The notes below the pieces were generated by a model. It made no database searches, was not told the origin of the DNA, and saw only the letters and a program-made list of their open reading frames with translations. Positions 23,428 through 24,719 of a stretch of 64,000 nucleotides of DNA are shown piece after piece; the first letter of the stretch is position 1, and the number at the start of each line of letters is the position of its first letter. The translations under genes were made by a program, and so were the position numbers. The DNA is from Natribaculum luteum (GTDB lineage Archaea > Halobacteriota > Halobacteria > Halobacteriales > Natrialbaceae): NCBI RefSeq assembly GCF_023008545.1, contig NZ_CP095397.1, positions 1,178,001 to 1,242,000 of the forward strand. Reading direction: 5' to 3'.

Positions 23428-23434
23428 ATTTATC
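23428..23434 (+). promoter_or_regulatory. TATA box for candidate structured RNA
   Basis: ATTTATC about 25-30 bases before 23458, where the outer stem of the candidate RNA begins. No start codon of a credible gene lies at the expected distance, which argues for a non-coding transcript. Confidence 0.45.
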
Positions 23435-23457
23435 TCGCTACAGGTCAACGATCAGAA

Positions 23458-23576
23458 CGGAAGCCGCTCTCCGACGGGGGCACGAATCGAAGTGCCCCGG
23501 GTGTACAGGCACCCGAGACGTGGCTTCCAACCCGAGAGGGTCCGAAAGCCATGCTCGGATTCGTCCCACCGGAACA
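23458..23576 (+). ncRNA. Candidate structured non-coding RNA, unknown family
   Basis: The plus strand can fold into a regular structure. A 13-bp outer stem joins 23459-23471 with 23515-23528 (GGAAGCCGCUCUC with GAGA-C-GUGGCUUCC, one bulged C and one G-U pair). Inside, two hairpins stand side by side: a 7-bp stem GGGGCAC/GUGCCCC at 23477-23498 and a 5-bp stem GGGUG/CACCC at 23499-23514. After the junction follow ACCC-GAGA-GGGU (a GNRA loop, 23530-23541) and GGA-UUCG-UCC (a UUCG loop, 23557-23566). The stable loop types favour the plus strand, as does the TATA box at 23428-23434. The bases ACA occur at 23574-23576, so an H/ACA guide is one possibility, but I could not identify its guide pocket. 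It is not a tRNA, 5S, SRP or RNase P RNA. Confidence 0.5.
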
Positions 23577-23938
23577 TAAACGTCTCGCACGACCGACGTA
23601 TCACCGTCGAGTGACGACGCCGAAGTCGGGTTCGACATTCCTGTCGGCATGTCCACACCGTGACACACTGCTCGCTGGCGGAGTGGCGACTGGACCGACG
23701 GATCGACGCGCCCGGTGCTGTGGCTCTCGGGCCCTCGTGGGCTCACTCGCATCGAGCGACTGACCACCTCGAGGGCGACGACCACCACCATCCACCGTTC
23801 GAAGCCTCGCCCTCGAGTCCTCTTTTATCCCATAGGACGTCTGCAGGCGGTGTTCGCACGCTCGAGACCGACCGAAACCGGGAGAAATTGACGGCCACTG
23901 CAGGTGCGCACGTGTCGAAACGACGAGGGGGCACAAGG
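23577..23938. other. Intergenic region without recognised gene
   Basis: Between the candidate RNA and the AbrB-type gene I see no convincing coding frame. Reading frames on both strands are Arg/Ser-rich shadows. The composition is less G+C-rich near 23780-23940. Confidence 0.4.
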
Positions 23939-23980
23939 ATGGAGTCTGTTAGCCCAGTAATTGGAAATAGGTGCTTTGAA

Positions 23981-24250
23981 ATGGGAAATCCCTCGTTCGA
24001 GGCGAACCACGGAGAGGAATTCACGCTCACGGTGGACGACAGAGGACGGGTGACCCTCCCGAAAGAGGTGCGAGAGCGGTTAGGTATCGAGTCGAACGAC
24101 GAGATCCCGGCGACGCTCGTCGGCTCTGTCCTCGAGGTCAAGCCGAAGCCCAGTTCGAAACTTGAGACGGCAACTGCAGGACGGACCGACTGGGAGGGCA
24201 CCACCCCGACCGACGCTGGAGAGACGCTTTTCGGGCCGATGGATCGGTGA
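23981..24250 (+). CDS. AbrB/MazE-type (SpoVT-AbrB) antitoxin or transcription factor
   Basis: An 89-residue protein with a swapped-hairpin AbrB DNA-binding domain (EEFTLTVDDRGRVTLPKEVRERLGIESNDEIPATLVGSVLEVKP, residues about 10-53), followed by a short Thr/Gly-rich tail (GRTDWEGTTPTDAGETLFGPMDR) of the sort that contacts a PIN toxin. The ATG at 23981 is used; an ATG 14 codons upstream at 23939 is an alternative. The downstream PIN gene begins 10 bases after the stop, the usual toxin-antitoxin layout. That toxin is broken, so the antitoxin is probably an orphan. Confidence 0.8.
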   Translation: MGNPSFEANHGEEFTLTVDDRGRVTLPKEVRERLGIESNDEIPATLVGSVLEVKPKPSSKLETATAGRTDWEGTTPTDAGETLFGPMDR

Positions 24251-24259
24251 AGGGACGAC

Positions 24260-24719
24260 GTGTCCGAGACGCTCCCGACAGAGGTGACGGTCCTCGCCGA
24301 CGTGAACGTGCTCGCGGTCGGACTGATCGACGATCATCCTGTCCACGACGACGTGTACCCGTGGCTCCAGAACGCGCTCGATGGGCCGAACGTCTTGCTC
24401 GTGTTCGACTATTACCCGTTACGAGCAGTTTCGGAGTGGATGCGGTCGATACTCGCAACGCAGTCCAGTCACTCGTGCAGAGTCCGGCGCGAATCGTAAG
24501 CGCTACGAGACGACGCTTCTCGAGGCGTACGAAATCGGCGCCGAGAAGAACCACGACGTCTACGACTCGTTTATCCTCGCTCTCGCACGATCGTACGACG
24601 CCGATTATTTGCTCACGACTGACGGCGACTTCGACGACCTGTGTAACGGTGAAGACGTGGCGTACGTCAACCCAGTTCCTGCAGAGAAACGCGAGAAACT
24701 AACACGCATCAGTGGGTAG
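24260..24719 (+). pseudogene. PIN-domain (VapC-type) toxin disrupted by two frameshifts
   Basis: Three consecutive pieces of one PIN ribonuclease lie in three frames. Frame 1 from GTG 24260 gives VTVLADVNVLAVGLIDDHPVHDDVYPWLQNALDGPNVLLVFDYYPL with the first catalytic Asp. Near 24415 the frame changes and reads VTSSFGVDAVDTRNAVQSLVQSPARIVSAT. Near 24512 it changes again to ETTLLEAYEIGAEKNHDVYDSFILALARSYDADYLLTTDGDFDDLC, with the remaining acidic residues, to the TAG at 24717-24719. Joined, they give a normal ~150-residue PIN protein. Sequencing error is possible but two independent shifts favour true decay. Confidence 0.8.

Follow-up and report, generated by a model that had tools for sequence, protein, structure and literature searches.

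A probable switch-like messenger RNA leader family preceding small zinc-finger genes in haloarchaea

The region beside dacZ, the cyclic di-AMP (c-di-AMP) synthase gene of Natribaculum luteum, contains a structured RNA element at positions 23459–23593 of the 64,000-nucleotide (nt) stretch of DNA analyzed here (contig NZ_CP095397.1, positions 1,178,001–1,242,000; hereafter, the window). An earlier note on this DNA had proposed a stand-alone structured RNA with its own promoter. On the comparative sequence evidence, the element is instead the 5′ leader of a protein-coding messenger RNA (mRNA), one of hundreds of copies that we saw in salt-loving archaea, and the leader family probably turns the synthesis of small zinc-finger proteins on or off. 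The promoter, the helices (P1 to P5), and the strand preceding the start codon are arranged as follows in the window copy.

23429–23434, + strand: TATA box TTTATC, centred 27 nt before P1 begins
23459–23593, + strand: leader copy, with the start codon at 23551
23459–23471, + strand: P1 5′ strand (GGAAGCCGCUCUC), from fold and covariation
23477–23498, + strand: P2 hairpin, stem 23477–23483/23492–23498, from fold and covariation
23499–23514, + strand: P3 hairpin (GGGUGU...GGCACCC), stem 23499–23504/23509–23514, from fold
23515–23528, + strand: P1 3′ strand, of which GGCUUCC (23522–23528) is the switching strand
23530–23541, + strand: P4 stem-loop (ACCC GAGA GGGU), pairing kept and sequence highly variable among copies
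23544–23550, + strand: pre-AUG strand (GAAAGCC), which rivals the P1 5′ strand for the switching strand
23570–23587, + strand: P5 hairpin in the upstream open reading frame (ORF), loop CAUAAACG, with one A–C mismatch in the window copy

The minimum-energy fold of the window copy (−59.5 kcal/mol) was matched by none of 200 dinucleotide shuffles (−42.4 ± 4.2 kcal/mol; z = −4.1). The outer helix that the earlier note had drawn at 23459–23471/23515–23528 is present in this fold as P1 and encloses two hairpins where the note had placed them; P2 has the seven base pairs it described, and P3 has six, not five. Its two further hairpins fared worse, as copies do not share the GNRA loop of P4, and the UUCG-capped hairpin (~23558–23566), likewise not conserved, falls inside codons 3–6 of the reading frame described below. 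The covariation test that it had suggested gave a positive answer for P1, P2, and P5, with a score reached by 0 of 500 shuffles (31 and 82 sequences), and sliding the partner strand abolished the pairing. Seven base pairs of P1 form in 143 of 155 copies, 8 of 31 copies have A–U in place of G–C, with both sides changed, at one P2 pair, and a covarying P5 pair is found in 118 of 123 copies compared to 91.5 after shuffling, with coupled codon changes of AGA/GGA with CTC/CCC. The stem of P3 is near-invariant, which says nothing in either direction, and its loop varies. The six differences between the window copy and that of a sister species are confined to the P3 loop region and the ORF, four of them at 23504–23509 in and beside the loop, and P1–P4 are intact in the window copy.

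The TATA box that had been noticed upstream of the helix is part of a conserved arrangement. The distance from its centre to P1 is 27 nt in 114 of 154 copies and 28 nt in another 24 (138 of 154 together), a peak that is absent from shuffled sequences. Because this spacing is kept, the transcript probably starts at P1, which in the window places the likely start at 23459 or within 1–2 bases of it. A structured RNA transcribed from its own promoter, beginning at the outer helix, is strongly supported, but the evidence does not support assignment to a separate non-coding gene or H/ACA guide.

The earlier note overlooked both the presence of many copies and a second helix that is incompatible with P1. 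A DNA search found the element at six places in the window genome and gave matches in 23 of 61 genomes. A covariance model (R1), derived from 31 copies, recovered eight copies in the window genome and detected the element in 81 of 121 Natrialbaceae genomes, representing 25 of 29 genera (Natrinema, Natrialba, Halovivax, Halostagnicola, Halopiger, Natronorubrum, and others), on both chromosomes and large plasmids. Genomes have from 1 to at least 27 copies, the upper figure being as many candidates as were scored. In one genome (G021; L034: 6957, 7879, 9600, 11123), four copies lie within ~5 kb. The window had no match in Rfam at gathering scores, and at E values up to 10 nothing sensible appeared; eight other leader loci were also without a match. 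Specifically, the element did not match the Rfam models of the ydaO c-di-AMP riboswitch, H/ACA RNA, signal recognition particle RNA, or RNase P RNA, and no transfer RNA or transfer-messenger RNA was found. None of the phage records carried the leader, and an exact 19-mer shared with one viral contig is a chance match in which the structure is absent.

The statement in the earlier note that no good protein frame exists is wrong for the 3′ part of the element. Reading from the AUG at 23551, no stop interrupts the first 15 codons in any of the 124 distinct copies, whereas the other two frames are open in 37 and 17, a contrast to which an invariant AUAAACG contributes in part. The encoded peptide follows the pattern M-x-x-x-I-L-P-G/R-Y/H-K-R-P/L-A-R, in which the R/G and L/P choices are linked because their codons pair in P5, so that the RNA constrains the peptide. 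We parsed 165 copies for downstream ORFs, calling zinc-finger ORFs by sequence pattern, and in 102 of them a second ORF (ORF2; CPxCG...GP...PCGC, mostly 47–120 amino acids) follows. The start of ORF2 overlaps the end of the upstream ORF (−4 in 62, −8 in 23, and −11 in 6 of the 102), the overlap being ATGA in most copies, and a motif resembling a Shine–Dalgarno (SD) sequence precedes ORF2 in 88 of 94; together, overlap and motif point to translational coupling. When an ORF2 profile (A3) was searched across whole genomes, its matches lay directly downstream of leader RNA matches, as in genome G009, where 11 of the 12 listed RNA matches pair by position with 11 of the 12 strong ORF2 matches. ORF2 is the last gene of its unit, the next gene lying on the same strand in 47 cases and on the opposite strand in 51.

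No Pfam or NCBIfam family matched ORF2 above cut-off, weak matches to Lar/RalR-type zinc proteins scored far below it, and comparison with solved structures returned only chance zinc-finger matches (best E 0.28). ORF2 resembles the small C(P)XCG zinc-finger proteins HVO_0758 and HVO_2753 described from Haloferax (PMC10716476) in being a tiny haloarchaeal zinc-binding protein, and differs from them in its CPxCG...PCGC pattern (second knuckle CGC), in having no Pfam or NCBIfam family, and in its tie to the leader. Several variants were observed: tandem pairs of ORF2-like zinc-finger ORFs in one genome (G012:C1:660413-660711, 3614918-3615201, and 3332952-3333283), and, in Halostagnicola (L096, L097, L106, L148), an N-terminal extension of ~75 amino acids (LVVDIVRTLE...) without a Pfam match. 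At four loci (L251–L254), ORF2 and the upstream ORF were not in the gene tables of the public plasmid records examined, where the table was incomplete.

The window copy itself encodes a degraded version of this pair.

23551–23763, + strand: ORF of 70 codons from the leader’s AUG (MLGFVPPEHKRLARPTY...), the upstream ORF fused in frame with an ORF2 remnant
23620–23757, + strand: decayed zinc-finger ORF2 of the CPxCG...PCGC type, with two of four cysteines gone (CPHRD...CCGSR)

The ORF2 profile still matches the remnant (G000:C1:1201620-1201757, E = 0.004), and alignment with intact copies shows its decay; the window copy is therefore not the best one for experiments.

Weak R1 matches outside Natrialbaceae share the architecture, with the helix sequences replaced. 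A second model (R2), built from these diverged copies alone, matched 54 of 243 Halobacteriales genomes, including Natrialbaceae copies known from R1, so the R1 and R2 sets are one family. A class-wide genome sample added members from the same order only. In Haladaptatus, annotated SWIM zinc-finger genes start at the leader’s AUG, and the other downstream ORFs of the diverged branch are mostly cysteine-rich, with a few that are not.

Two further observations concern the promoters of the SWIM-type and related leaders. Five of them (L204, L206, L207, L283, L287) have a palindrome between the TATA box and the transcript start (position ~1455–1500 on the RNA strand) whose sequence differs from locus to locus, for example atatcccatgtgggatat and caattgctacgtagcaattg, suggesting candidate locus-specific operators. 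Just upstream of SWIM-type leaders at L226, L288:1676-1915, and L289:2168-2410 lies a divergent ORF of ~80 amino acids with similarity to winged-helix proteins (MarR_2/TrmB), and its product may bind the palindrome.

Evidence that the leader could act as a switch comes from the 3′ strand of P1. The switching strand GGCUUCC can pair either with 23459–23465 or with the bases before the AUG; it is followed by the variable P4 and then by GAAGCC or a similar sequence directly before the AUG, and in nearly every copy this stretch folds as a single long hairpin that reaches to the AUG and draws on the strand required by P1 as well. At least six contiguous pairs between the pre-AUG bases and the P1 3′ strand are found in 57% of Natrialbaceae copies (n = 155) and 82% of diverged copies (n = 40), compared to 9% and 8%, respectively, when the pre-AUG bases are shuffled. 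The strands co-change as lineage variants (GGAAGCC, GAAACC, GGAAGACC, GGAAAGCC, and GAGAAGC). Written as 5′ strand/3′ strand/pre-AUG strand, the sets include GGAAGCC/GGCUUCC/GAAGCC, GAAACC/GGUUUC/GAAACC in the Halostagnicola group, GGAAGAcC/GGUCUUCC/GAAGACC in Haladaptatus, GGAAAGCC/GGCUUUCC/GAAAGCC in another genus of its family, and GAGAAGC/GCUUCUC/GAGAAGC at L276. We regard this co-change of all three strands between lineages as decisive evidence for the predicted second helix. In the two predicted states, the P1 3′ strand would pair with the 5′ end of the RNA (state A) or with the pre-AUG bases (state B), and in state B the upper part of P1 can remain folded together with P2 and P3. When each state was forced, the median difference was 4.1 kcal/mol in Natrialbaceae and 5.6 kcal/mol in the diverged copies; for the window copy the two energies were −52.1 and −47.5 kcal/mol.

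Comparison supports a transcript start at P1 and a three-helix domain made up of P1, P2, and P3. We propose that state A would leave the pre-AUG region free and the gene on, and that in state B the hairpin end against the AUG would block initiation, turning it off. Binding of some factor to the conserved P1-P2-P3 core would stabilize P1 and so switch on expression. Ribosomes translating the short ORF in Natrialbaceae would then hand over to ORF2 via the overlap and SD-like motif; in Haladaptatus, the AUG would directly start the SWIM zinc-finger protein. Within a genome the core is common to many copies, which therefore probably respond to a single signal. That this core stands at many loci and before zinc proteins of unrelated kinds makes a shared signal likelier than self-specific feedback. 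Our guess is that the likeliest signal is zinc or another intracellular state relevant to zinc-binding proteins.

In our judgment the element is probably a cis-acting, switch-like 5′ mRNA leader that controls translation, and we regard the comparative support for such a switch as strong. A more specific reading, which we consider less likely than not, is that it might represent a new class of archaeal riboswitch acting directly on the start codon, possibly with a metal- or stress-related ligand, its genome-wide regulon comprising dozens of dispersed zinc-finger microprotein genes and its cassette having moved before unrelated zinc-protein families. As in riboswitches, a conserved structured core with covariation sits within an mRNA 5′ leader and precedes the start codon that it would regulate, and core and expression platform pair in mutually exclusive ways, this last property being weaker in copies with GGUUGCC before the AUG. 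The leader shares with translational riboswitches a multi-helix core closed by P1, near-isoenergetic states, a P1 strand shared with the start-codon hairpin, and the use of one core at many loci; it differs from them in lying outside Rfam, in being archaeal, in reaching at least 27 copies per genome, in having a ligand that is only postulated, and in that it would occlude the AUG itself rather than an SD motif.

Several observations weigh against a switch. In most copies state A has the lower energy, and the off state therefore requires a trigger or kinetic control. In the GGUUGCC copies (at least 31 of 155), a UU/UU internal loop interrupts the alternative helix. Within Natrialbaceae the switching strand is near-invariant, so covariation of the alternative helix rests there on few lineages, and the strong cases are those between families. 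Finally, about 60 of the 165 parsed copies have no zinc-finger ORF by pattern; some of these have other cysteine-rich ORFs, and some, including the window copy, are decayed.

The main rival is a protein effector: the zinc-finger product, or another protein, could bind the P1-P2-P3 core or the AUG-proximal hairpin and feed back on its own translation, which we consider rather unlikely while taking it seriously. The two-state fold would be unchanged, with a protein as effector in place of a small ligand. In most intact copies the encoded product is a small zinc-binding protein, of one of two unrelated kinds (CPxCG and SWIM), and the archaeal leader candidates described for haloarchaea are of the protein-binding type, S15 being the example (PMC7247131). 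Against feedback, the core stays conserved even though Natrialbaceae and Haladaptatus have entirely different protein families downstream, at least 20 paralogs share it, which makes self-specific feedback unlikely, a few downstream ORFs lack cysteines (L283, L287), and the core bears no resemblance to the genome’s own ribosomal RNA (rRNA). The ribosomal-protein leader candidates listed for Archaea, those of S15 in Halobacteria and of eL15 and L4 in other archaea (Eckert and Weinberg 2020, PMC7247131), are likewise structured cis-acting leaders, one of them haloarchaeal, whereas the element precedes zinc-finger genes and has neither rRNA similarity nor an Rfam match; with zinc-finger genes downstream and no stretch of more than 10 bases shared with rRNA loci, we rejected a ribosomal-protein leader or rRNA mimic.

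An improbable reading that does without regulation is a constitutive initiation element, a compact 5′ fold that presents the AUG to ribosomes free of an SD motif, with the second helix a mere folding intermediate. Leadered initiation without an SD motif is known in haloarchaea, and here no SD motif precedes the first AUG while transcript start, P1, and AUG stand at fixed places; yet such a passive role needs no second complementary strand, still less one that co-changes with both strands of P1 in several lineages, and the near-equal energies of the two states are typical of switches. Modules of the hok/mok/sok type are structured mRNAs in which a coupling ORF overlaps a second small ORF, with chromosomal and plasmid copies. 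The leader resembles them in all these respects, including the overlapping coupling ORF, and also in its decayed copies such as that in the window, and the sub-threshold Lar/RalR matches of ORF2 lean the same way; it differs in that one strand serves both its 5′ end and the switch near the AUG. A harmful small protein silenced by antisense RNA or folding, with copies that decay in place, is nevertheless quite improbable, as no antisense RNA is known, ORF2 encodes a soluble acidic zinc-finger protein, the Lar/RalR scores are so low, and the PADLOC defence library gave no match.

Very unlikely is a trans-acting or stand-alone non-coding RNA, such as the H/ACA guide that the earlier note had offered as one option. 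The window copy and some others retain the RNA after loss of ORF2, and the window RNA is 97% identical to the sister-species copy compared to 93% over 500 bp, but an AUG and ORF are tied to the family in nearly all lineages, no Rfam model matches, and the loops that a guide would need vary. The ACA near the end of the proposed RNA (23574–23576) spans codons 8–9 within a hairpin of the coding region, and it is not conserved: in 51 of 124 copies, codon 9 is UAU rather than CAU. Least likely is a mobile repeat akin to a miniature inverted-repeat transposable element, its structure incidental. Dispersed copies whose number varies per genome, and the cluster in G021, would suit it; the conserved promoter spacing, structure, and ORF overlap do not, and copies within a genome have diverged rather than spread recently, with differing downstream sequence and compensatory change that a neutral repeat would not be expected to show.

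Very few natural riboswitches or switch-like leaders have been proven in Archaea; the fluoride riboswitch of Thermococcus kodakarensis was given as the only experimentally shown natural one as of 2021 (PMC8241225). A large family supported by three-strand changes, in culturable hosts, makes archaeal RNA control of translation at SD-less starts directly testable. The leader also reveals an accompanying family of small zinc-finger proteins for which there is no Pfam or NCBIfam model. We found no earlier description of the leader family in the literature searched, which left most subscription journals uncovered. Switch-like mRNA leaders as a kind are already known; what appears new is the family itself, its host domain, its copy number, and the way it is paired, like a cassette, with zinc-finger microproteins.

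The earlier note had set the element in the context of dacZ, but no gene family recurs beside leader copies, so dacZ is an accidental neighbor, unrelated to it. No Pfam family was enriched among neighboring genes on either side (77 loci each); there is therefore no operon partner, and toxin–antitoxin neighbors are incidental. A c-di-AMP link through dacZ was rejected for the same lack of recurrence from copy to copy and because ydaO does not match. TnpB guide RNAs and CRISPR-regulated CreT were also considered; neither fits an RNA that lies at a promoter and runs into two overlapping ORFs. In the window, positions 23660–24719 contain an AbrB/MazE-type antitoxin ORF followed by a PIN toxin spread over two frames (24260–24499 and 24381–24719), a vapBC-like pair whose toxin gene is apparently frameshifted.
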